A stretch of DNA of 64,000 nt from Gallionella sp. Lineage in GTDB: Bacteria; Pseudomonadota; Gammaproteobacteria; Burkholderiales; Gallionellaceae. How positions within the stretch are numbered: the first letter of the stretch is position 1; each line of letters begins with the position of its first letter. Location: assembly GCA_030682375.1 (NCBI GenBank), contig JAUXOL010000011.1:62001-126000 (forward strand), written 5' to 3'. Below, piece after piece: positions 1 through 10,062 of the stretch. Under the pieces are notes generated by a model. The model had not been told where the DNA came from and searched no databases. It was given only the letters and a program-made list of their open reading frames with translations. The translations under genes were made by a program, and so were the position numbers.

Positions 1-1
1 A

Positions 2-133
2 TCACGATATGTTAGGCTGGACAATATGTCGCATATTGCGATGGGTTGTAAAACGCGACTAACGAAACTTGAAGAACGGACGAAAGGCAAAAATGCACAG
101 GCCAAAATGGATGTCTCCAGAAGCGTGGGTTGA
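2..133 (+). CDS. possible 3' end of an upstream gene (partial)
   Basis: This frame is open from the first bases of the window to a TGA at 131-133 and would encode 43 residues, rich in Lys, Arg and Glu near the end (LTKLEERTKGK). If real, it is the tail of a gene beginning outside the window and overlapping the start of the HNH gene by about 40 nt. Nothing in it identifies a family, and a chance open frame of this length is common. An internal ATG at 26 could alternatively start a very small ORF. Confidence 0.2.
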   Translation, partial: SRYVRLDNMSHIAMGCKTRLTKLEERTKGKNAQAKMDVSRSVG

Positions 134-1046
134 ATTTGTTAGTCGCTGGCAAGATGAGAGCGGAAGCATCACCTGCGTTACTCCGAATTGCGGCGAGTTC
201 AACGGAGATCACATGTCCGTTGATCACATTACGCCACGTACGGCAGGGGGAACGAATGATGTGTCCAACCTACAACCACTATGCCGATCCTGCAATTCCA
301 AGAAAGGCGCGCGTCCTGATGGCTATTGGAGCAGGTCGTTCTACTTCGACAAGCCTCTCAATACAAACCAATTGCGCATTTCTCAAATGGATTACGTGTA
401 CAACCCGATCCTTGAGAATGAAGAATTCTTTTCGCGGCCATACAGTGCCATCAACGGCAAGCTGTTTTCCTTCATTCAGATCGTCGGCGCAGGGAAAACC
501 TTGGGAATGTTCTGCCTTCCGTTTGCGCTCAATACGGCAATCAATCGTAACCACACTGCACAAGCCCGCATTGATCGAATGCTTATCGTGACCAAAGATC
601 AGACGCTTCGTGGGCAGATTGCCAAGGAGATACTCGAAGAGCCGATGAAATATGGATTCGTCAACGAAGTCCCTAGAGTCGTGGAAATCACAAAAGGCGA
701 TATGTTGACCGACACCAATCTGGACTATGACATCGCGGTGATGTGCCCGAACATGCTTTGGCCACAAGCCGACAACAATTCAGAGACGGGCAACGTAGTT
801 TACACCTGGAGTCCCGGCATCGAGCGCATTCTCAATCGACATCCACTTATTGCTTTTGACGAAATGCACTACGCGCATTCGAGCATTCGCCGCCTGATAA
901 ATGCCGCAAGGCATTCGTTGGTATTCGGCTTTACCGCTTCGCCAATTGATTCTTGCGGTGAGCTTCTTGATGACATGATTCGCGTGACGGTTTACACCTA
1001 TCACGATGCCATCGTGAATGATGGTTCGATGAAGCACGTTTCTTAA
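93..1046 (+). CDS. HNH endonuclease fused to N-terminal half of an SF2 helicase
   Basis: Seen (numbering from the upstream TTG at 69): an HNH module at about residues 36-80 with paired cysteines, VDHITPRTAGG, and LCRSCNSKKG; then a first RecA-like helicase domain with Walker A VGAGKT (139-144), Walker B DEMH (264-267) and motif III TAS (289-291). The ATG at 93 is preferred over the TTG at 69 because an AAAGG lies about 6 nt upstream. The protein stops right after helicase domain 1, and motifs IV-VI are in the next gene, which continues in the same frame. It probably works with that product as an ATP-driven, metal-dependent nuclease, perhaps in phage or plasmid defence. That role is inference. 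GC is lower than in the core genes. A single helicase gene broken by one stop codon is the alternative. Confidence 0.7.
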   Translation: MHRPKWMSPEAWVEFVSRWQDESGSITCVTPNCGEFNGDHMSVDHITPRTAGGTNDVSNLQPLCRSCNSKKGARPDGYWSRSFYFDKPLNTNQLRISQMDYVYNPILENEEFFSRPYSAINGKLFSFIQIVGAGKTLGMFCLPFALNTAINRNHTAQARIDRMLIVTKDQTLRGQIAKEILEEPMKYGFVNEVPRVVEITKGDMLTDTNLDYDIAVMCPNMLWPQADNNSETGNVVYTWSPGIERILNRHPLIAFDEMHYAHSSIRRLINAARHSLVFGFTASPIDSCGELLDDMIRVTVYTYHDAIVNDGSMKHVS

Positions 1047-1061
1047 TTGAGGAAATGCAAC

Positions 1062-2732
1062 ATGACCGCCGAAAATCAGATTGAGAACGTAACCACCACA
1101 TCCCCTGCGGCACAGTATCCACGCTGTCTGACCGTACTCACGGCCAAGGAGCAAAAAACATTCGGCGGCGAATGGGCGAGCGATACGAAACTAAGCGGCC
1201 TGCCGACTGTGCGCTCGGTGGTTAATGCTGTTATCAAGCAGGCATACGAGCTTGACGATACTCAGATCAAGGGCGACAAAGAGTATTTGCTACATGACGA
1301 GCATTGGATTCATTATCGTGGCGAGGAAACGCTGGTTCTAGGGCAGACGTATCCTGTTCATGGGCTTGTTTCAGTTGGCAGCATTGAAACGGCGAATGAC
1401 GTGGCTGATTACATGAACAAAGTATTCAGCGCTGATCGCGGCAAGTATCCAAAGAAAGATGGCTGGCAAGCGATGGCCGCGCATTCGACTGCTTCGATTG
1501 CGTTAGATAAGAACCATCCCTTTTTCCGTTACAAGGAAACGAGAAAACTGGACTCGCGGTGTTGCCGATTTCTCGTGGTCAACGAAATGGCCGTTGAAGG
1601 AATGAATAATCGCTACTTGGGCATTTGGGGAGCGGCTGAGACATTCGGCAGTGTGCGCAAGGGTGTTCAGCGTATTGGACGAATCATGCGCTCTGCAGCG
1701 GTACGCGATGGGGGCAAATTCTTCATTCCGCCAGCATCGCACGACCAGGCTTACATCATTACCCACGAAGCGTTCGAATCCAGACCAAGTGCAAGCGGCA
1801 CTACGATTTCCACCGCCAGAACGATCAGTGAGAGCGTCGATTTCATCGTTGACATGCACCAAGCGACGGCTGACATTATGACGCTGGACGAATACGTAGC
1901 ATTGGATGTCAGCGAAACCGATACGGGTGACATCAATCGAGCTTCCCAACTCACCAGATGGGCAAAGTACGCTATTGCGGTTCAGATAGGCCAAGCACTG
2001 CAACAGGGGCGGCGTCCTCAAATTGGTCGGCTCGTCCGCAATTTTGGCGGGACTAGCGAATTGAAGAAGTCATACGTCCGCGCCTTCGCTGAAAGTGCCC
2101 TAAATCATCATCCAAGTCATTGCCACGTCATCAAGGATGGCGTGGTGGCCGACAAGGCTGTGGATGCCATTGAAGACCTCAAGCGGGGCGTTTTGAGAAT
2201 TGAACCACCCGAACCAGCACAGGTGTTGGAGGCCGAGCGAATGGCCGTTCAGGCACTTGACCTAGAGGGGGCAAAAGCATGGCTATCCAAGTTTGGATTT
2301 GGGCCGTACTGGCTTCGCAAGTTGACCGATGCGGATGAAGCGGAATGGTTGGAATCCGTGAATCAAATGCGCCTCTCCTGGGAGGGCCAATTCGACAAGT
2401 ACGAGCTTGATGTTAGGCAAACACCGGCGGCTCGTTTGATGTCGATGGCAGATGAGATCACCAAGAACCTTAACGTTGAGGATAGTGCGGCAAGAGTTCG
2501 GGAATTGGCGCTTGAAGGCGCCGTGCATCATCTGGGAAGTCTCGGAGCGACAACATTGGACGACTTCGATGAGGGCGGCGCATTCTGCCGTCCTGAGATC
2601 ACCTACGCCTTCCGATCCGAGCCTTTTGTCTCTCAGCTCCAGGCTTGGGTGTGTTTTATACTGCTTAAGGAGAAACGCCTTAATGATTTGTGGGCGGTGC
2701 TGCGTTTTGAGCGGTTTTGGGAGGAAGCATAG
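1062..2732 (+). CDS. C-terminal half of the SF2 helicase, with a long unknown C-terminal region
   Basis: The frame is the same as the HNH gene, from which it is separated only by TAA (1044-1046) and 15 nt. A GAGGAAA sits about 8 nt before the ATG at 1062 (a TTG at 1047 is also possible), so independent, coupled translation is plausible. Seen about 170-215 residues in: a motif V-like stretch (FLVVNEMAVEGMNNR) and motif VI (QRIGRIMRSA), which provides the arginine finger in SF2 enzymes. No Walker A or B is present, so it cannot hydrolyse ATP alone. The remaining ~340 residues are largely helical and unrecognised. The motif split fits a two-subunit helicase assembled from this protein and its neighbour, or a nonsense-mutated single gene. 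Confidence 0.7.
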   Translation: MTAENQIENVTTTSPAAQYPRCLTVLTAKEQKTFGGEWASDTKLSGLPTVRSVVNAVIKQAYELDDTQIKGDKEYLLHDEHWIHYRGEETLVLGQTYPVHGLVSVGSIETANDVADYMNKVFSADRGKYPKKDGWQAMAAHSTASIALDKNHPFFRYKETRKLDSRCCRFLVVNEMAVEGMNNRYLGIWGAAETFGSVRKGVQRIGRIMRSAAVRDGGKFFIPPASHDQAYIITHEAFESRPSASGTTISTARTISESVDFIVDMHQATADIMTLDEYVALDVSETDTGDINRASQLTRWAKYAIAVQIGQALQQGRRPQIGRLVRNFGGTSELKKSYVRAFAESALNHHPSHCHVIKDGVVADKAVDAIEDLKRGVLRIEPPEPAQVLEAERMAVQALDLEGAKAWLSKFGFGPYWLRKLTDADEAEWLESVNQMRLSWEGQFDKYELDVRQTPAARLMSMADEITKNLNVEDSAARVRELALEGAVHHLGSLGATTLDDFDEGGAFCRPEITYAFRSEPFVSQLQAWVCFILLKEKRLNDLWAVLRFERFWEEA

Positions 2733-2756
2733 CTTTGATGCCGCATCAAAGCTATG
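2728..2756. repeat. perfect 13-bp inverted repeat with 3-nt loop
   Basis: The arms 2728-2740 and 2744-2756 are exact reverse complements around CCG. The repeat covers the stop codon of the helicase C-half gene and lies 50 bp before the next gene. No T-run follows, so it is not a typical intrinsic terminator. It could be an operator or partition-like site for the KfrA-type protein encoded downstream, or an RNA hairpin that tunes expression or stability within the operon. Confidence 0.85.
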
Positions 2757-2806
2757 TAACATACTGATGTTGCGACAAATAATAACGATAGATACAAGGA
2801 GCTAAC

Positions 2807-3670
2807 GTGGCACGGACAACCAGCGAGAGTAAGGCTGTACGCGACAATTTAACCGGGCATAACGTTGCGGCGACCGTACCTATCCCGGAACTCATTTCAA
2901 TAACGAGCGGCGATGTACGAGGCCGATTTGCCTCTCTTGAGAATGACGAGCAGCGCCAAGGATTCTTGGACTCGATCACCACCAAACTCGATAGCAATTG
3001 GGGTAATTGGGCAAAATTCTACGAAGCTGTCTCGATCATTCGAGAACAGAAGTCGTACTGGCAGTCGAAAGGGTTTGATAGCTTCGAGAGCTTTTGGCGG
3101 GCCAAAGCTGGCCCTGCGTTCCAGTCATTCAAGGAACTAGAGGGCATTTACAATTTTGCCAAGACCGCGTGTCCTGAACTTTTCGGTATTGATTTCGAAG
3201 GGGCTAAACAATTACGCAAGAAATTGGAAAAGTTAAGTTCAATTCCAGCACTCGCGCAGAATGGCGTGACGAAGGCTAAGAAACGTCTCTATTCCGACAC
3301 AACAGAGGCTCACGCAGCCGTTACGCAAGCGATGGGTTGGCACAATGCTGGAGGAACCTCGCTTGAATACCGATTGGCAAAACTGAAGAGGGATCGCCCA
3401 GATATAGCCGCTCGAATCCTGGCGGGCGAATTCTTCAAAGAATTGGGGACAGGACAAATCGGGATTGATATGGCAGCGGCTGAACGGGAAGCCTATGGAG
3501 AGGTAACGCGCAAGCCAAAACGCCAAGCTTCTAACGTCGGAAGTGAGGTCGCCAAAACGATCAGGTCGGCAGCCAAGTCACAAACAAGTCGCCAGCAAGT
3601 CATCAACGAACTGCGTGAAATTCCTTGGTTGATGGAAGCGCTTGCAGCAAACTTCAAGAAGAAGAGATAG
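2807..3670 (+). CDS. uncharacterised 287-aa protein of the helicase cluster
   Basis: Starts at GTG with a strong AAGGAG 5 nt upstream. No enzyme motif is recognised. The N-terminus (first ~30 residues) looks disordered; the middle is helical with aromatic residues (WGNWAKFYEAV). At about residues 193-220 a charged stretch, YRLAKLKRDRPDIAARILAG, resembles a segment I associate with phage and plasmid DNA-binding regulators. The C-terminus is basic (KRQASN, ending FKKKR), which suits nucleic-acid binding. It lies 10 nt before the KfrA-type gene and 74 nt after the helicase half, so it is probably in the same operon. It may be a DNA-binding adaptor; function is unknown. Confidence 0.6.
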   Translation: MARTTSESKAVRDNLTGHNVAATVPIPELISITSGDVRGRFASLENDEQRQGFLDSITTKLDSNWGNWAKFYEAVSIIREQKSYWQSKGFDSFESFWRAKAGPAFQSFKELEGIYNFAKTACPELFGIDFEGAKQLRKKLEKLSSIPALAQNGVTKAKKRLYSDTTEAHAAVTQAMGWHNAGGTSLEYRLAKLKRDRPDIAARILAGEFFKELGTGQIGIDMAAAEREAYGEVTRKPKRQASNVGSEVAKTIRSAAKSQTSRQQVINELREIPWLMEALAANFKKKR

Positions 3671-3680
3671 GTGACTCCCT

Positions 3681-4514
3681 ATGCCACGCGAATCCACTAT
3701 TACTTACAATATGGTCGCAGCTATAGCGGACAGCCTTTTTAAACAAGGCAAAAAGCCCACGGCGCGCGCCGTTCGCGAGGCTCTTGGTGTTGGTAGCATG
3801 GCAATGATCCTCAAGCATTTGCGTCAGTGGCATGACAGCCGGGAACATCAACGTCCGATTGTAGATGCAGGAATGTCCATCACCCCGGCATCACGCCAGA
3901 AGCGGACTGAGAAGGCCGCCATTTACCAGGTCGATGGCGTAAGCGTGGACGTTACTGACTTACTCAATATCGACTTTGAGATTCTTGACCTGGCGTCCGA
4001 TGCTATGACACATGTTTCAACTACAATGGCTCGGGCATCGGGTGAAGATCGCGCCAAATACTTATCCGAAGTTCTCACAAACATCCTTGATCGCCAGAGC
4101 GATCGGGTATTAGAACTCTCTGCGAGGTTGGGCGAGGTGGATGCTCCTCCACCTCGCCAATCAGTCCATCCAGAAAATGTTAGGCCGAGCATTGTGGCGC
4201 AATGTGCTCGCCTGAATCGGCTGGGCGGCAGAGCAGGAAAGAATGATTACATCACTCTCTACACTGGTGGGCAGGACGATTTTTCCGCCATGTCGATTGG
4301 GGAATTGCAGGAAATCATCCACTCCGATAAATGGCTTGAGATGCAAATACGGCTACGCGCATCGGGGATGCTGATATCAACCAACGTTGTAAAAGTGGCG
4401 AGGTGGGTTGCAAGAGGCCTGGATGTACGTCATGCCATCAACAAAATTCTGGTTGATAACGAAGTCTATACAACAGAGAGCCGACCCGCCTCAGCTTTTC
4501 AACGAAAGGCCTAA
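3681..4514 (+). CDS. KfrA-type DNA-binding protein
   Basis: The N-terminal ~50 residues fit the plasmid replication-region DNA-binding (KfrA N-terminal) domain: a helical start, then QGKKPTARAVREALGVGSMAMILKHLRQW, an HTH of the form G-K-x-PT-x-x-x-V. In plasmid KfrA proteins this domain binds operator repeats and precedes a long coiled coil. Here the remaining ~225 residues are not an obvious coiled coil and include a segment near 170-200 (LNRLGGRAGKNDYITLYTGG) that I do not recognise. The ATG has AGGTGA about 10 nt upstream, and the gene is only 10 nt from its upstream neighbour. A role as cluster regulator or DNA-recognition factor is inference. It converges on the XamI-type gene. Confidence 0.65.
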   Translation: MPRESTITYNMVAAIADSLFKQGKKPTARAVREALGVGSMAMILKHLRQWHDSREHQRPIVDAGMSITPASRQKRTEKAAIYQVDGVSVDVTDLLNIDFEILDLASDAMTHVSTTMARASGEDRAKYLSEVLTNILDRQSDRVLELSARLGEVDAPPPRQSVHPENVRPSIVAQCARLNRLGGRAGKNDYITLYTGGQDDFSAMSIGELQEIIHSDKWLEMQIRLRASGMLISTNVVKVARWVARGLDVRHAINKILVDNEVYTTESRPASAFQRKA

Positions 4515-4560
4515 CTAACCCACTACTAATGAGGTGCCTTGTGGCGTCGAGCCTTCTGGG

Positions 4561-5478
4561 TCAGCGGGTTGATTCAATAAACTGGCCGAGGCGATCCAAG
4601 TCATGCGCCCAGAAAATTGTCAAACCGCCCTTCTGGGCTTGTACCAGATTCAGGGTCTTGAACACACCGGACAATACGGCTGACGGAACGACCTGAGACA
4701 ACCCAAATTCCTTGTTCCAATGCGCAGCCTTCACCGCTGCATCATTGTTCACGCGCTTTACGCTGTTCGTCGCGGAATTGGATACCTTGCATTCAATCGC
4801 CATCAAACGTGTATCGTGCAACCGAAGTGCGACATCGGCTTTGCGATCACCCAACATGCATTCAGCGCTGAACTGGCCTGGACCAGGGCCTTTCACGATG
4901 GTGTTGATAGTTGCTGCTGGCACTTCGGTAAAGCCGCGGGTGCGCAGGTAGTCCTTCACCATGGTTTCTTGTTCATCCTTCCCTTCACTGCGTCGCTCAG
5001 TTGCGATCCGTTGTGCTGCCAATAGCACGGACGAGGCTAGCAATGCGGCGGACTTCTCTGCGTCTGTGGGAGCACGCTGCGCAATAACCCATGGAAAACG
5101 GAATGGGTCGATAACCCGTTCGATCACATCAAAAACTTTTCGCAATGACGCTGGATCGGCGCTCAGGACGCCAGGTGCAAGCGAGCTGACATCGGCAATT
5201 ACCTTCAGGTCATCATCCGAAATTGGTGGCCCCGCCAAGTAACGCAGCGCTTCCCCAAGTTTCCCTTTGTAAGCCAATGCAAGACTTGCATCCGTAAAGT
5301 TCTTTGGGTCGAGATCGCCAAGCTCGCCGAAAAGTGTCTCGAACTTGGCGCGTGCGGCATGGTAATGATCCGACCACGCCTGTGTAGGCGACAGGCGCTC
5401 GGCCCGGAAGTTGGCGGCAGAGATGTCCGCGTCAGCACTTAGCTCTTCTTCGGTCCAGCGGGGAGGGTGGCTATTCAC
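4561..5478 (-). CDS. XamI-type restriction endonuclease
   Basis: 305 aa. The region around residues 205-235 (GDRKADVALRLHDTRLMAIECKVS) has the spacing of a PD-(D/E)XK nuclease core, with an acidic residue, then ECK on the next strand. The overall sequence fits the XamI restriction endonuclease family, whose founding member recognises GTCGAC; the specificity of this copy is not shown. The GTG start at 5478 overlaps the methyltransferase stop by 4 nt (GTGA), so nuclease translation is coupled to methylase translation. It is the last gene of a controller-methylase-nuclease operon and faces the KfrA-type gene. Confidence 0.72.
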   Translation of the reverse strand: MNSHPPRWTEEELSADADISAANFRAERLSPTQAWSDHYHAARAKFETLFGELGDLDPKNFTDASLALAYKGKLGEALRYLAGPPISDDDLKVIADVSSLAPGVLSADPASLRKVFDVIERVIDPFRFPWVIAQRAPTDAEKSAALLASSVLLAAQRIATERRSEGKDEQETMVKDYLRTRGFTEVPAATINTIVKGPGPGQFSAECMLGDRKADVALRLHDTRLMAIECKVSNSATNSVKRVNNDAAVKAAHWNKEFGLSQVVPSAVLSGVFKTLNLVQAQKGGLTIFWAHDLDRLGQFIESTR

Positions 5479-7061
5479 TCGGTAAATCCTTCCAACCGTG
5501 GCATGCGCAATCGTTCAATCTCTTTCGGTTCGAATTTGGTTAAGCCGCCCGCGTAAGTCCGCCCTGCGGCAACCGAAATGTTCTCGTTCAGCCAAGCGAC
5601 AATGCGGGTCATGATCTCGGGCGCAATGGGCTCGCGTGGGTAAAGGCCATGGGCTATGTTAATGTGGCGAGCGTCACAGCCATTCATGGTGAATTGCGGC
5701 GACCGCCTAGCCATGTAGGTACACAGAATCGGCGCAGGCGCTTTAAGTCCGACAGACCACCAAGCCTTGCGATGCTGGGCAACATAGGACTTATCCGCTC
5801 CTTGCCCTCGCGCCCATTTCAGAAATGCACTTATGCGCTGACGCTCACCACGCGTGAACTCTTCGAGTTCTGGCGGGATATCTACGATACGACGCAAGAT
5901 ATCGGCATTCTGCAATCGCTCGCCCGCCATGATCAAGTCCTTCGCCTTTGTAACAGTGGGAATAAGCAAGCGCTCAGGCAATCGTAGAGCCTCTTCGCCG
6001 GCAATCCAAACACTATTTGCTCCTGTGACCTGCCCGCGATGCACTCGGAACAGTTCGCCCAATTCCATATCGCCCTCTCGGCGCATTTCTGTAGGACGAA
6101 CAATGATCGACCATTTGGCACTGTCATGCAGGCGGTCGCGTTCAACCAGAGTCCCGGAAGACAACCCATTCAGCTTGGGGAGAGTACTGACGGAGCGTAC
6201 ACGAAACGGAGCTTCTGCTTCCCCAACACGGAAGCACGTAATGGCAGCGGTGGTAGCGGTACCAGGAAAAGCTTCGACCGTGGGCTCTAGGACGTGCAAG
6301 GCTAAACCGCCAAGCTCGTTAATCAGGAGATTGCGCAATGACGCGCCATAGTTAACGTCCATCCATTCGGCGGACGTAATGAAAACACCCACGTCCCCCT
6401 CTTTGACGAGCATGCGGGTCTTAAGAAAGAAATGCAGATGTAGTCCGGCGAGTGCACTGGCACGGATACCGAGCTCAGCAAAGTTGTCCACGTACCACGC
6501 TTTCCACTCTTTGCCGATTGCGTGGTGACGGACATAGGGCGGGTTGCCGATATAGGCGGTCACCCCTTCGATTTCTTGCAATTCAATGGCTCGGTAGTCG
6601 TCCACTATCACAGTAGTTCGGTCAGCCATCCCGGCAGCATGCAGGTTCGCCCGCAACATCAGCGCGGCCAATGGGTCCAGCTCTACAGCAACGAGCTGAG
6701 CACGAGGAAAGCTTCTTCCTGCATTCAGGATGAATCGACCTGAACCAGCGCCAGGGTCGACAATACGCGCCGGGGTAGTTTCGTTGCCCAGCCAGCGCAG
6801 CATCGAGCCGATGATGGTCAGTGGAGTATAAACCGCACCCATACTGCGGCGATCCGATGAAGAACGCAATTCCGCAAATGCATCGCCGAGCGGGTCCATG
6901 CCCTTCTGTATGGCTTTCCGCAGCGCCAATACTTTGCTATCGCGCGCTGCCATGGGCGTAATGTTGCCAACCAACGACCTCTCGGCAGGCGAAAGATCAT
7001 TGACGTTCGTTATCAATGCAACGCAGGCAGCGATCAGTTCTTTTTCGGTTGTAAACGACAT
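5475..7061 (-). CDS. N6-adenine DNA methyltransferase of the restriction-modification operon
   Basis: About 528 aa. Motif I of the SAM site reads DPGAGSGRF (about residue 102) and the catalytic N6-adenine motif IV reads NPPYV (about residue 173), in the order typical of gamma-class type II methyltransferases. The C-terminal half, with no strong motif, is likely the target-recognition region. ATG at 7061 is chosen because a GGAG lies 9 nt upstream; a GTG at 7076, two bases after the controller stop, would add five residues. It protects host DNA from the downstream nuclease. The target sequence cannot be read from the protein alone. Confidence 0.85.
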   Translation of the reverse strand: MSFTTEKELIAACVALITNVNDLSPAERSLVGNITPMAARDSKVLALRKAIQKGMDPLGDAFAELRSSSDRRSMGAVYTPLTIIGSMLRWLGNETTPARIVDPGAGSGRFILNAGRSFPRAQLVAVELDPLAALMLRANLHAAGMADRTTVIVDDYRAIELQEIEGVTAYIGNPPYVRHHAIGKEWKAWYVDNFAELGIRASALAGLHLHFFLKTRMLVKEGDVGVFITSAEWMDVNYGASLRNLLINELGGLALHVLEPTVEAFPGTATTAAITCFRVGEAEAPFRVRSVSTLPKLNGLSSGTLVERDRLHDSAKWSIIVRPTEMRREGDMELGELFRVHRGQVTGANSVWIAGEEALRLPERLLIPTVTKAKDLIMAGERLQNADILRRIVDIPPELEEFTRGERQRISAFLKWARGQGADKSYVAQHRKAWWSVGLKAPAPILCTYMARRSPQFTMNGCDARHINIAHGLYPREPIAPEIMTRIVAWLNENISVAAGRTYAGGLTKFEPKEIERLRMPRLEGFTE

Positions 7062-7078
7062 GCACTTGGTCTCCACTA

Positions 7079-7381
7079 CTAGCCCCGTGGAAACAGGTAA
7101 TTTTGTTTGTTGTCGCCGCCAAACCTGCCAATTCCTGCTCCGCGTGGCTTCTTGGGCGTGATATCGATGTTCGACAGCACTTCCCGAAAGTCAATCTTGC
7201 GCTCGGCCATTTCCCCCAGCAGGGTGGCGATTACGGCCAAGTGGGAAGGTACCTCTCCCTTCTTGCCGTAATTGCTTAGCGAGATGCGGTTCATCTTCAC
7301 CAGATCCGCGAACTGGCGAAGGTTCAACCCGGCTTTCCCGATCTGCCGCTGAAATTCCTCATAAGTCATGGCGCGCATCAT
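7079..7381 (-). CDS. small HTH protein, likely controller of the restriction-modification operon
   Basis: 100 aa. A helix-turn-helix of XRE/lambda-Cro style is visible (FQRQIGKAGLNLRQFADLVKMN followed by ISLSNYGKKGEVPSHLAVIATLL). The frame is open further upstream to 7474, but the promoter at 7407-7435 would initiate near 7400 and a GGGGAAA lies 7 nt before ATG 7381, so 7381 is the start. The C-terminus is Gly- and basic-rich. Position first in an operon with methylase and nuclease is that of C (controller) proteins, which delay nuclease expression after entry into a new host. That role is inferred from position and fold. Confidence 0.7.
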   Translation of the reverse strand: MMRAMTYEEFQRQIGKAGLNLRQFADLVKMNRISLSNYGKKGEVPSHLAVIATLLGEMAERKIDFREVLSNIDITPKKPRGAGIGRFGGDNKQNYLFPRG

Positions 7382-7406
7382 AACAATTTCCCCATTGTCA
7401 GGCTTT

Positions 7407-7435
7407 AATATATCAACAACATATAACAATGTCAA
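7407..7435 (-). promoter_or_regulatory. sigma-70 promoter of the restriction-modification operon
   Basis: On the minus strand: -35 TTGACA (complement of 7430-7435), a 17-nt spacer, and -10 TATATT (complement of 7407-7412). It points at the controller gene, with an expected start near 7400 and a ~20-nt leader. The spacer is AT-rich with short TTGTT repeats that could be controller-binding sites. Confidence 0.7.
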
Positions 7436-7462
7436 AAACACATTAGTAAATGTTCGAATCTC

Positions 7463-7491
7463 TTGACTGAACATAAATTAGTGACTATGAT
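7463..7491 (+). promoter_or_regulatory. sigma-70 promoter of the transposase gene
   Basis: TTGACT (7463-7468), a 17-nt spacer, TATGAT (7486-7491); expected start near 7498, 25 nt before the transposase ATG. A small inverted repeat GTCAT-N6-ATGAC at 7496-7511 covers the expected start and could be a regulatory or terminal site. Confidence 0.7.
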
Positions 7492-7522
7492 TCATGTCAT
7501 ATATTTATGACGGAGGTTCGCT

Positions 7523-8545
7523 ATGTCCCACCACAAACAACATTTCTTACTTTCAGCCGAAGCCCGCACCCTGTCTGTGCGCAAGGTGTTCGAAATGAGC
7601 GACGACGAGGCCTTCGCCGTGTTCCGTGAAGTGCGCTGGGGCAAGAGCGGGGAAGTGGTGTGCCCGGTGTGTGGTGTGATCGGCAAGCATTACTTCAAGG
7701 CCACTCGCAAGCAGTGGCAATGCAAGGACTGCAAGCACACGTTCTCCGTGACCAGTGGGACGATCTTCGCCTTCCACAAGTTGCCGCTGAAGGTATACCT
7801 CGGAGCCATCGCTATCTTCACCAATGCGGTGAAAGGTATTTCAGCCCTGCAACTGGGCCGCGACCTCGGCGTTCAATACAAGACCGCCTTCGTGCTGGCG
7901 CACAAGATTCGCGAGTCGCTGATGGAAAAGCGCGACGACGCGCCACTGTCCGGTGAAGTCCACATGGACGGCGCATACGTCAACGGCCATATCCGTCCGA
8001 AGAACAAGAAGGCCGACCGTATTGATCGCCGCCTGGCCGTCAACCAGAAGCCCGGCAAGCGCTGCGTATTCGTAATGCGTCAGAAGTGTCAGGAACTGGC
8101 CGCAGGAGCCGTTAAAACGCTTACCTTCGTCATCAAGGGCGAGAATCAAACCGACGTAAGCAACCTAGCGGAATCGTATGTGAAGAAAGGCTCGATCATC
8201 TGCGCAGACGAATCCAACGCCTACGATCCGCTGCATGCAAAATACGACACTCGCCGGGTGAATCACAGCGTCGAATATCGCGCCGACGATGGCACCACGA
8301 ACAACCTGGCTGAATCCTACTTCTCCCGCTTCCGCCGGATGCAGTACGGACAAGTCCACAAGTTCGGGAATCTGTACCTCGCCAACTATGCCAATGAAGC
8401 GGCCTACCGCGAGGACACACGCCGCTGGGCGAACGGCAAAATATTCACTGACATTATGACCAAGTGCGCCCGCACGCTGACTAATCGTGACTGGTGCGGT
8501 TACTGGCAGGGGAACAAGCGGCAGGAAGAGCGCCTTGCCGCTTAA
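7523..8545 (+). mobile_element. IS1595 (ISXO2-like) family transposase
   Basis: 340 aa, full length for the family. An N-terminal zinc ribbon (CPVCGVIG ... CKDCKHTF) is followed by the signature region FHKLPLKVYLGAIAIF. The DDE-type core shows HMDGAYVNG (first Asp), ICADESNAYD (second Asp) and NNLAESYFSRFRRMQYGQ (third acidic residue). GGAGG lies about 8 nt before the ATG. The frame is intact, so the enzyme could be active. I could not find a convincing pair of terminal inverted repeats or target duplications by eye, so the ends of the element are undefined; the two leftward genes to the right may be passengers. Confidence 0.85.
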
Positions 8546-8553
8546 CTGAATCG

Positions 8554-9000
8554 CTAAACAAGCTCCCAGATCATTGCGCCTCTGGGAGAGTCATCGACAC
8601 GACCAACCATCTTGATCGTGCCTTTTCTCTCCAGCCGTTGAGCGGCGCTCAACACCGGCTTCAAGAAAGAATCCCATTCCTTAACGCCGTTGACGGTCAT
8701 GTCCTTGAGGGCAACCATCGCTTCGCCGATCTGACGGGTTGAGAGTGGCTTTCCAGCCGTTCTCAACACATTCAATATCAGCCGGTTCGCCTCGCCATGT
8801 TCGAACCAGATATTTGAAAGCCGATGATTGGTCACTTTGATGGTGCGCAAATCTATATCGGGATCGAATAGTTTGATCGTGGTGGTCAAGTGGTCGAGAT
8901 CGGCGGCGATCTGCCGCATAACTTCCTGGTGATGCTGGAATTGGCTGCTCAGTTCGGAATACTTGGCGATCAAACCGGATACAACATGAGATTCAGACAT
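8554..9000 (-). CDS. uncharacterised 148-aa protein, paralogue of its upstream neighbour
   Basis: It aligns along its length with the neighbouring 142-aa protein: SGLIAKYSE near the N-terminus, a coiled-coil stretch with HHQ, LFDPDIDLRTIK, then GEANRLILNVLRTAGKPLSTRQIGEAM and a basic tail. The last part looks like a winged-helix DNA-binding fold. It ends 8 bp from the transposase stop, in convergent orientation. I recall similar proteins near IS1595-type transposases, which would make it a passenger or accessory gene, but this is from memory. Probable DNA-binding regulator; function unknown. Confidence 0.6.
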   Translation of the reverse strand: MSESHVVSGLIAKYSELSSQFQHHQEVMRQIAADLDHLTTTIKLFDPDIDLRTIKVTNHRLSNIWFEHGEANRLILNVLRTAGKPLSTRQIGEAMVALKDMTVNGVKEWDSFLKPVLSAAQRLERKGTIKMVGRVDDSPRGAMIWELV

Positions 9001-9012
9001 GATGTTTCCCCT

Positions 9013-9441
9013 CTAATCTGCGATCTTCCAGCGGATGCTCACACCATCCATGCCAACGCGCTGGACGATGCCCCTTCGCTCGGCGAAGCGCAGTGAGTTG
9101 TTCACGCTGTCGGTAACGGTCGATTGCTGTTCTTGCGGCACGTTCTTCTTGTGCATGATGATCTCGGTGATGAGCGTGGTACTCAGCACGTCATCTGCGC
9201 GGCGCAACGCCTCCAAGCAGAGGCGGTAGCATTCCCCCTTCTTGAAGATGCGGCTGTAGCGACGGTATTCCTTCGCCTTGATAGATCGGATACGATAGGC
9301 CGGGTCGAAGATGCGGATCGCGGCGTCGATCTGGTACAAGCATTGCCGAAGACGCTCGATTTCCTTCTGGTGATGCTCGATCATTCCGGCCATTTCTGAA
9401 CGTTTGCCGACTAGCCCTGATATGGCGTAGGTGTGTCCCAT
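9013..9441 (-). CDS. uncharacterised 142-aa protein, first of the paralogous pair
   Basis: Same layout as the following gene: SGLVGKRSEMA, a coiled coil with HHQKEIERLR, IFDPAYRIRSIK, then FKKGECYRLCLEALRRADDVLST and a C-terminal segment (FAERRGIVQRVG) resembling the wing of a winged helix. The start follows a GGAGAG. The stop is 12 nt before the next start, so the two are co-transcribed and probably arose by duplication. Their divergence suggests an old duplication, perhaps forming a heterodimer. No function is assigned. Confidence 0.6.
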   Translation of the reverse strand: MGHTYAISGLVGKRSEMAGMIEHHQKEIERLRQCLYQIDAAIRIFDPAYRIRSIKAKEYRRYSRIFKKGECYRLCLEALRRADDVLSTTLITEIIMHKKNVPQEQQSTVTDSVNNSLRFAERRGIVQRVGMDGVSIRWKIAD

Positions 9442-9550
9442 TTATCTCTCCATTCAACGATTCTTGAATAGGGAGATTCTACGAAGATGGGGCAGAATAT
9501 CCTTGTGCGGTTGCTACATAATTCCGGGCAAGACAAGAAAGGTAACTTGC

Positions 9551-9574
9551 TGCCGGGCAACCCCCGGCGGTTTT
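9551..9574 (+). terminator. hairpin with T-run, first half of a composite repeat
   Basis: Stem GCCGGG/CCCGGC (9552-9557 with 9563-9568), loop CAACC, then GG and TTTT. It has the form of an intrinsic terminator, but no plus-strand gene lies immediately upstream. The same hairpin design followed by the same 36-bp motif occurs at 44743-44832, so it belongs to a dispersed repeat. Confidence 0.55.
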
Positions 9575-9600
9575 CGTTGAGTACCGACTAAATCGTTATG

Positions 9601-9636
9601 CTTCGATACGGCCTTCGGCCTACTCAGCACGAACGG
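9601..9636 (+). repeat. dispersed intergenic repeat, copy 1
   Basis: Contains the palindrome GGCCTTCGGCC followed by CTACTCAGCACGAACGG. A near-identical copy is at 44795-44832, with only a few differences. REP-like elements of this sort are common in intergenic DNA of proteobacteria. Here it marks the junction between the accessory region and core genes. Confidence 0.75.
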
Positions 9637-9647
9637 ATACGCTCTGG

Positions 9648-9667
9648 ATTCCGGCCTGCGCCGGAAT
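9648..9667. repeat. 8-bp perfect hairpin repeat
   Basis: ATTCCGGC and GCCGGAAT around CTGC. It follows a CTGG and precedes GACGAACG, a combination resembling a widespread REP-like intergenic element. It lies just past the end of the rhodanese gene (minus strand), where it could protect or terminate that transcript, though no T-run is present. Confidence 0.6.
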
Positions 9668-9675
9668 GACGAACG

Positions 9676-10062
9676 TTAAGTCTGCCCCCACGGCAACCCG
9701 TCAAACCGCCACCCGTTATGCGAATTGCGATGATGGCTATCGTCCAGATCTCCCTCGAATCCGTGCGTCACGTTGTACACCTCGGTGAACCCGGCCTGCT
9801 CCAGCGCCTGACCGGCATCCATCGAACGGCGACCTGAACGGCAGATCAGCACCACCGGGCGGTTCTGGCTGGCAGCCTTTTTCACATGGGCGACAAAATG
9901 CGGGTTGATATCCCACTCCGGGCCGTCCACCCAGGGAATCAGCATGGAATCCTTGGGACTGCCGACGAACATGTGTTCCATCTCGCTGCGCACGTCGACG
10001 AAGATCGCCTCGGGGTTGGATTGCAAAAATTCGTAGGCCTGCTTGGGGGTGAGATGTTGCAT
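9676..10062 (-). CDS. single-domain rhodanese-like protein
   Basis: 128 aa, one rhodanese domain. The active-site loop is CRSGRRS (about residues 74-80), with the catalytic Cys and the R-S-G-R arrangement of sulfurtransferases; the N-terminal IFVDVRSEMEH is the family's conserved entry strand. No signal peptide or membrane segment, so cytoplasmic. Such proteins transfer sulfane sulfur or serve in thiol chemistry; the partner is unknown. It is divergent from ubiA and the first core-like gene after the accessory region. Confidence 0.85.
   Translation of the reverse strand: MQHLTPKQAYEFLQSNPEAIFVDVRSEMEHMFVGSPKDSMLIPWVDGPEWDINPHFVAHVKKAASQNRPVVLICRSGRRSMDAGQALEQAGFTEVYNVTHGFEGDLDDSHHRNSHNGWRFDGLPWGQT

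Follow-up and report, generated by a model that had tools for sequence, protein, structure and literature searches.

Among transposons, the Tn7-like elements are an established carrier of immune genes: restriction-modification and other immune systems abound in their cargo, and according to the excerpt consulted of Benler et al. 2021 (PMC8649781), 26% of them harbour innate immune systems that had been described before. Elements of the IS1595 family with passenger genes are also on record, in which an IS1595-family DDE transposase mobilises extra genes; Siguier et al. 2009 is, by its title, a reference on this family. The partial text of PMC5704250 names MTnSag1 and tISCpe8, the latter a lincomycin-resistance element according to a reference title cited there, and plain family members are short, 700-1287 bp as read from the flattened table in the excerpt of PMC7371123. 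Here, a 64,000-nt stretch of Gallionella sp. (assembly GCA_030682375.1, contig JAUXOL010000011.1, positions 62,001-126,000; hereafter the window, to which unprefixed coordinates refer) was analysed together with the DNA to its left (L002), which was examined since a low-GC block begins there. Four plus-strand genes at 93-4514 belong to the cargo of a complete IS1595-family transposon, referred to as element A. The best reading, to which we assign a probability of roughly 0.6, is that they include a helicase-nuclease restriction system under WYL control, carried by a defence-bearing IS1595 transposon.

Element A is 11,609 bp long (G000:C20:59918-71526). Its left terminal inverted repeat, CGGAATTATGTAGCAGCCGCACAA, starts outside the window at L002:9918 (G000:C20:59918), and its right one, CGGAATTATGTAGCAACCGCACAA, occupies 24 bp at 9503-9526 on the minus strand. 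These 24-bp ends, which differ at one position, emerged from a self-comparison of the block and a comparison to a congener. Beyond them lie identical copies (8/8) of an 8-bp target duplication, GGCAAGAC, at L002:9910-9917 and 9527-9534; a duplication of this length is usual in the IS1595 family. Besides the inverted repeats and the duplication, an uninterrupted copy of the target repeat in the same genome and a sister element in the same kind of repeat (both described below) support the transposon. The transposase (7523-8545, plus strand) matches PF12762 (IS1595/ISXO2 DDE, E 5.2e-46) and NF033547 (137.6 bits against a cut-off of 75, E 5.3e-40). It is followed on the minus strand by two companion proteins of one family, of 148 aa (8554-9000) and 142 aa (9013-9441); the first has a relative near one end in all six full-length elements described below, and the second is 91-96% identical in three other elements. 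The cargo likens A to the Tn7-like transposons, but its engine differs: tnsABC-type genes were not seen by eye in its open reading frame (ORF) lists, and it has a single IS1595-family transposase, 24-bp ends, an 8-bp duplication and the 142/148-aa companions. In contrast to tISCpe8, the elements found here form a set of six, 7-15 kb long, sharing ends and companions, five of them with multi-gene defence cargo. Defence cargo on transposons is itself known; new here is that the carrier runs on a different engine and contains a candidate system outside the PADLOC models. Among the matches listed from the open-licence PMC literature, titles and abstract openings make no mention of defence systems carried by the IS1595 family.

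The 24-bp end, with at most one mismatch, was present in 8/300 genomes of the order and 3/51 of the genus, with the source genome counted in both draws. The reversed pattern, used as a control, gave no hit at one mismatch among the matches listed and one in the source genome at three mismatches. Six full-length elements were recovered from five genomes: A and, in the same genome, B (C13:50932-64802, 13,871 bp, with three mismatches at one end, lying in the same kind of repeat as A), together with those of genomes G724 (6,976 bp), G964 (15,396 bp), G930 (12,048 bp) and G383 (12,666 bp), the last a congener. The second ends of B and G930 were found by looser matching. The transposases of the other five are 75-87% identical to that of A over the main aligned piece, and one or two members of the companion family lie near one end of each full-length element. 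Both copies of the 8-bp duplication agree fully in A, B, G964, G930 and G383, at 7/8 positions in G724, and again fully in a distant and short seventh element of 3,558 bp on a phage contig (L077:8718-12275), which has ends of the same kind and a transposase that is 45% identical. The viral collection contained four stretches with an exact end match, two of which share one source number and seem to hold both ends of one element with an 8/8 duplication. The cargo figures below exclude incomplete elements: G865, G1013, G901, G1053 (ends on two contigs), G369, L045, L046 and the L044/L047 pair. The phage-contig element contains its transposase, a companion-like gene and two further genes that look membrane-bound by eye.

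Strong PADLOC matches to restriction, methylation or other defence genes, the WYL gene aside, occur in five of the six full-length elements, a raw count over scanned ORFs (in some cases part of an element's ORFs). Setting it beside the 26% of Tn7-like transposons is a loose comparison, with different models, a tiny sample from one bacterial order and no random-locus baseline on our side. In A, the matched genes are a XamI-type restriction endonuclease (4561-5478, minus strand, E 5.8e-129) and its DNA methyltransferase partner (5475-7076, minus strand, with Eco57I/N6_Mtase matches and a PADLOC E of 2.7e-244). B carries a 1734-aa helicase with a MkoC match (4.9e-161) and a Toprim domain, followed by a Topoisom_bac gene, possibly an unusual Mokosh-like system. 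The cargo of G724 comprises a type IIG enzyme (2.6e-110) with a specificity subunit (1.2e-76), that of G964 a type III methyltransferase (6e-142), a ResIII helicase, a PDC-M18A match (3.9e-118) and a DUF5131 gene with a PDC-M30A-type partner, and that of G930 a type IIG enzyme (E 0), a PDC-M30B/M41B gene and a PDC-M41A-type partner. G383 holds a three-gene operon besides a WYL gene and a phosphoesterase whose PDC-S10 match is weaker (1.1e-11). If the pattern holds, new immune systems could be found by searching for the 24-bp end and reading the DNA between two copies.

Regarding the four genes, the sequence-only reading had described a same-strand cluster with short gaps and lower GC beside a restriction-modification operon and a transposase, and this description is borne out. 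The intergenic gaps are 15, 74 and 10 nt, GC is 49-53%, compared with an average of 61.6% in the sequence past 10 kb (55-67% in 1-kb steps), and the neighbours are the XamI-type enzyme, its methyltransferase and the IS1595-family transposase. That reading overlooked that the entire block, the left part of which lies outside the window, is one transposon. Gene 1 (93-1046, plus strand, ATG at 93; 317 aa) fuses an HNH nuclease domain (PF01844, E 1.2e-12) to a first RecA lobe (ResIII, PF04851, E 8.7e-8) with superfamily 2 (SF2) motifs I, II and III, legible as GAGKT at residue 132, DEMH at residue 256 and TASP at residue 281. Gene 2 (1062-2732, plus strand, ATG at 1062, open from 1047; 556 aa) supplies a second RecA lobe with motifs IV-VI and a C-terminal region without known relatives. 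Pfam gave no match for gene 2 in a search set to E 10, under HMMER filters that drop most weak matches. A profile of ten plasmid SF2 helicases picked up motifs V-VI in it (VNEMAVEGM...VQRIGRIMR) at i-E 1.4e-11 in a set of three target sequences, a test that is partly circular because 3/10 helicases were chosen from gene 2's own weak matches; the same profile matched motif I of gene 1 weakly (i-E 3.7e-4). The order I, II, III / IV, V, VI is legible across genes 1 and 2 when they are aligned with other helicases. Pfam, motif positions, alignment and profile together show motifs I, II, III, V and VI divided over two genes, in line with the earlier reading of HNH and Walker A/B in the first and V/VI in the second. 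Genes 1 and 2 look like a DNA-cutting motor protein divided into two genes. Gene 3 (2807-3670, plus strand, 287 aa) matched nothing in Pfam, PADLOC, PHROGs or NCBIfam, and gene 4 (3681-4514, plus strand, 277 aa) encodes a KfrA_N-type DNA-binding protein (Pfam E 8e-14), both in agreement with what had been proposed. Gene 3 might contain an HTH-like RLxRDxPDIxxRxxAGE signature.

Divergent from gene 1 lies a gene with a WYL domain by Pfam (L002:11140-11958, minus strand). Its product matches solved structures over most of its length, CapW at E 1.4e-39 and BrxR at E 4.1e-36 among hits ranging to 1.9e-27, and is by this homology a divergent CapW/BrxR-type regulator. It shares this homology with the WYL regulators treated in PMC9122588, PMC9122589 and PMC9122601 and stands divergent to an operon that it may control; the operon adjoining it in A matches no CBASS or BREX model in PADLOC. 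Between the two genes lies a perfect 7+3+7 palindrome, CAATATGTCGCATATTG (22-38), as a candidate operator. The WYL protein of G383 is 39% identical to that of A and likewise divergent to an operon, a different one. The two elements share the order companions, transposase, operon, WYL gene, phosphoesterase, the last intact after WYL in G383 and reduced in A to a 40-aa, 75%-identical remnant (L002:10648-10767); A alone has the XamI-type pair between transposase and operon. The common order together with the differing operon suggests that the operon slot is exchangeable. Neither WYL nor phosphoesterase was found in 13 other loci, including B, G724, G964 and G930.

We infer a defence operon within the four-gene stretch. 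Until infection or DNA damage is signalled, the divergent promoter would be held shut by the WYL protein; after that, the HNH-RecA1 and RecA2 proteins would join as one SF2 motor, which would move along foreign DNA while the HNH domain cuts it. The 287-aa and KfrA-type proteins might be DNA-binding helpers or a separate self-regulated pair, which is a guess, and the transposon would spread such operons by exchanging the contents of one cargo slot. The multi-protein, ATP-driven nuclease system proposed beforehand survives in part: the candidate sits beside defence genes, with a CapW/BrxR-type regulator and sister elements carrying comparable cargo, whereas neither a conserved four-gene co-occurrence nor, beyond chance or weak general helicase matches, relatives of gene 2, of the RecA1 half of gene 1 or of gene 3 came to light. 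A wider proposal, which we regard as unlikely as a whole, is that this group of IS1595-family transposons with its own companions would be a dedicated carrier swapping defence operons, some behind a shared CapW/BrxR-type switch, one operon being an undescribed immune system with its RecA lobes as separate proteins, one of them HNH-armed, so that motor and nuclease would form only when both are present. If true, dividing a helicase between its RecA lobes and arming one half with the nuclease would amount to an unusual safety design.

Several results weigh against a WYL-controlled restriction system on a defence-carrying transposon. In PADLOC-DB 2.0.0, gene 1 had weak HNH matches only (best E about 0.001) and genes 2-4 none. 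Relatives of gene 2, of the RecA1 half and of gene 3 were not found, which leaves function without support from conservation or from four-gene co-occurrence. Gene 2 continues the frame of gene 1, from which one TAA and a Shine-Dalgarno/ATG separate it, and a gene broken by a nonsense codon would look alike. Structure predictions from single sequences were unusable: the fold of genes 1 and 2 read through the stop reached a mean pLDDT of 31.5, and that of gene 3, mostly helical at low confidence, 47.6. As for control, the 22-38 palindrome is weak, its arm length being reached by 45/1000 approximate dinucleotide shuffles, and the WYL-operon spacer of G383 has no palindrome beyond chance (401/1000 shuffles). 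The phosphoesterase remnant is one decayed gene already present in element A. The transposase of G724 (L059:1597-2600) needs two frames to align with that of A (74.8% and 57.4%), pointing to a frameshift, so that this copy may be inactive. Furthermore, the G383 operon (1669, 262 and 454 aa) has no Pfam or PADLOC match at E 0.001, and the cargo count is raw and drawn from six elements of a single order.

The rival that survives best, and which we consider a serious possibility short of even odds, takes genes 1-2 and genes 3-4 as two unrelated cargo modules that are neighbours on one strand by accident. The 74-nt gap between them contains most of a perfect 14-bp stem with a 3-nt loop (2727-2757, plus strand), which spans the gene 2 stop, occurs as a single copy in the window and has a fold z of -3.48, with 0/200 shuffles folding equally well; a promoter-like site (2756-2783, plus strand) follows directly. 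The stem may be an operator for genes 3-4, and KfrA-type proteins are known to bind repeats and regulate themselves. Since genes 3-4 have their own palindrome and promoter-like site, the four genes need not form one system, and genes 3-4 may be a separate module; module mixing is, moreover, visible among the elements. Against this stand the single strand, the short gap and the common transposon, as well as the promoter scan of 1-4700, which returned 3 sites against a shuffle mean of 4.0, i.e. no excess. The stem was dismissed as an intrinsic terminator between genes 2 and 3 for want of a T-run, and Rfam had no family at gathering score within positions 1-10000 of the window.

Somewhat less probable, and in our view unlikely, is that a single HNH-SF2 gene has been broken by one nonsense codon, leaving a dead or dying module as cargo. 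This draws on a fact that the sequence-only reading overlooked, namely that gene 2 stands in the frame of gene 1 with the TAA alone between them, and on the truncated phosphoesterase in the same element. The residues after the stop, LRK, also line up by MAFFT with LRK of two intact helicases, but without statistical significance: 251 and 371 of 2000 shuffles do equally well, the junction window ranks 157/839, and the post-stop residues as a relic of an ancestral continuous helicase were accordingly rejected. The junction itself speaks against a broken gene. After the TAA (1044-1046), positions 1047-1064 of the plus strand present a Shine-Dalgarno-like TTGAGGAAA and the ATG at 1062, with TTGAGGAAATGCAACATG lying between the two genes. 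When a stop was placed at each of the 8664 codons of 16 local genes, genes 1-4 included, such a signal with an in-frame ATG followed at 93 codons, and at 27 under stricter rules. The break is placed, by eye on the alignment, just past lobe 1 in the inter-lobe linker before lobe 2, and the 556-aa second half is still open. A break in the linker with its own Shine-Dalgarno and ATG favours a true split; such a split of the helicase thus appears likelier than a nonsense mutation, though unproven.

Searches for homologues found few counterparts to the cluster. Gene 2 was matched in 1/274 genomes of the class, 2/398 of the phylum and 1/399 of the order, the source genome being one in each of these overlapping draws. 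The one other match, in genome G689 (E 4.9e-4, 71 residues), lies opposite a 601-aa ORF that resembles an acetolactate synthase, and was taken as chance. Gene 2 gave nothing in plasmids, phages, viral contigs or genome contigs, where both contig scans detect near relatives only; at E up to 10, the plasmid records matched (4/4, E 0.3-3) are all annotated as helicases. The RecA1 half of gene 1 was found in 1/350 class genomes, which is its own, and gene 1 had no match in genome contigs, viral contigs or plasmids. In phages it had 127 partial-match records, none above 80%; the 20 listed align with its HNH side and are annotated as HNH endonuclease, endonuclease, hypothetical protein and, once, replication initiation protein. 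Gene 3 was matched in 1/150 genomes of the family, itself, and elsewhere by nothing better than E 3. That the cluster is what remains of a replication or partition module from a plasmid or phage is improbable: KfrA_N-like N-termini (143 records) and the ~600-aa SF2 helicases weakly matched by gene 2 (167 records) are common on plasmids, but Rep, ParA, ParB and relaxase were not seen in the element's ORF lists by eye or among its Pfam-scanned proteins, genes 1-3 have no plasmid match at E 1e-5, phages offer nothing for gene 2 at E 0.01 and for gene 1 partial matches around the HNH among those listed, and the boundaries of the block are those of the transposon.

The divided helicase was also compared with known architectures. 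Gene 1 shares the ResIII domain with type III and type I restriction helicases, but its HNH is fused before RecA1, the lobes are on two genes, and the only methyltransferase seen in element A belongs to the XamI-type pair. A comparable pairing, which speaks for a true split, occurs on the Gloeothece plasmid Cy782202 (L083), where a 75-aa HNH gene directly precedes and overlaps an 868-aa SF2 helicase gene; that pair is split between nuclease and helicase rather than between RecA lobes, and its similarity to gene 1 is marginal (E 0.04). In the literature on split SF2 helicases and HNH in defence, consulted in part, the phrase 'split helicase' was absent among the matches listed. Plasmid SF2 helicases of about 615-630 aa were observed at L080:6029-8307, L082:5155-7433, L084:2995-5202 and L085:2983-5229, each followed by a gene of about 110-140 aa. 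One of them lies near Tn7-like genes, and the two that were scanned, of L080 and L085, have distant similarity to the PADLOC mREase_IV and PbeA models.

Further observations concern the contents of the elements. In A, a 131-aa protein without a family match (7079-7474, minus strand) lies next to the methyltransferase gene; it might be a small XRE-like controller. A second HNH-like gene (L002:9981-10637, minus strand, 218 aa; Pfam HNH E 3e-4, just below the cut-off) sits between the left end and the truncated phosphoesterase. B (L048:4106-15153, G000:C13) also has a 253-aa gene that is HNH-like by eye, with no Pfam match, and a SUKH-like gene just below the Pfam cut-off. The three-gene operon at L074:4695-11813, in a congener's element beside a CapW-like WYL gene and with a 1669-aa product resembling an SMC-type ATPase by eye, is a candidate for a second undescribed system. 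The elements at L060 (3955-5972, 11280-12920) and L062 (2732-6711) have a DUF5131/PDC-M30B-type gene, its partner and an AAA ATPase that look alike by eye, and differ in their restriction-modification genes (type III versus type IIG), so that modules seem to be mixed among them. An ORF at L060:5983-6414, between the PDC-M30A-type gene and the type III methyltransferase, consists of a tandem AAGCWLL-type unit and is possibly phase-variable.

The chromosomal site of element A could be compared in G404, the closest congener, alone. All 76 genomes of the genus draw matched the rhodanese/ubiA flank in some part, in a few cases over very short stretches, and only the source genome and G404 matched it as one piece. 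The flank gene names (mltA-like, rhodanese, ubiA) are read from the translations. At the same site G404 has no such transposon; 2338 bp of other DNA lie between the mltA-like gene and rhodanese, mostly without a counterpart in A, the repeats excepted. This space (L035:4195-6532) holds ORFs of 181 and 307 aa and lacks transposon ends. Inverted repeats of about 200-230 bp lie beside the integration site in both congeners (L002:8492-8696 and 9712-9917; L035:4224-4453 and 6297-6526). Element A is inserted within such a repeat, and the flanks of B share at least 29 bp of it per side. About 1.4 kb leftward in the source genome (around L002:8480-8511) lies an uninterrupted copy of the target repeat with a single GGCAAGAC.

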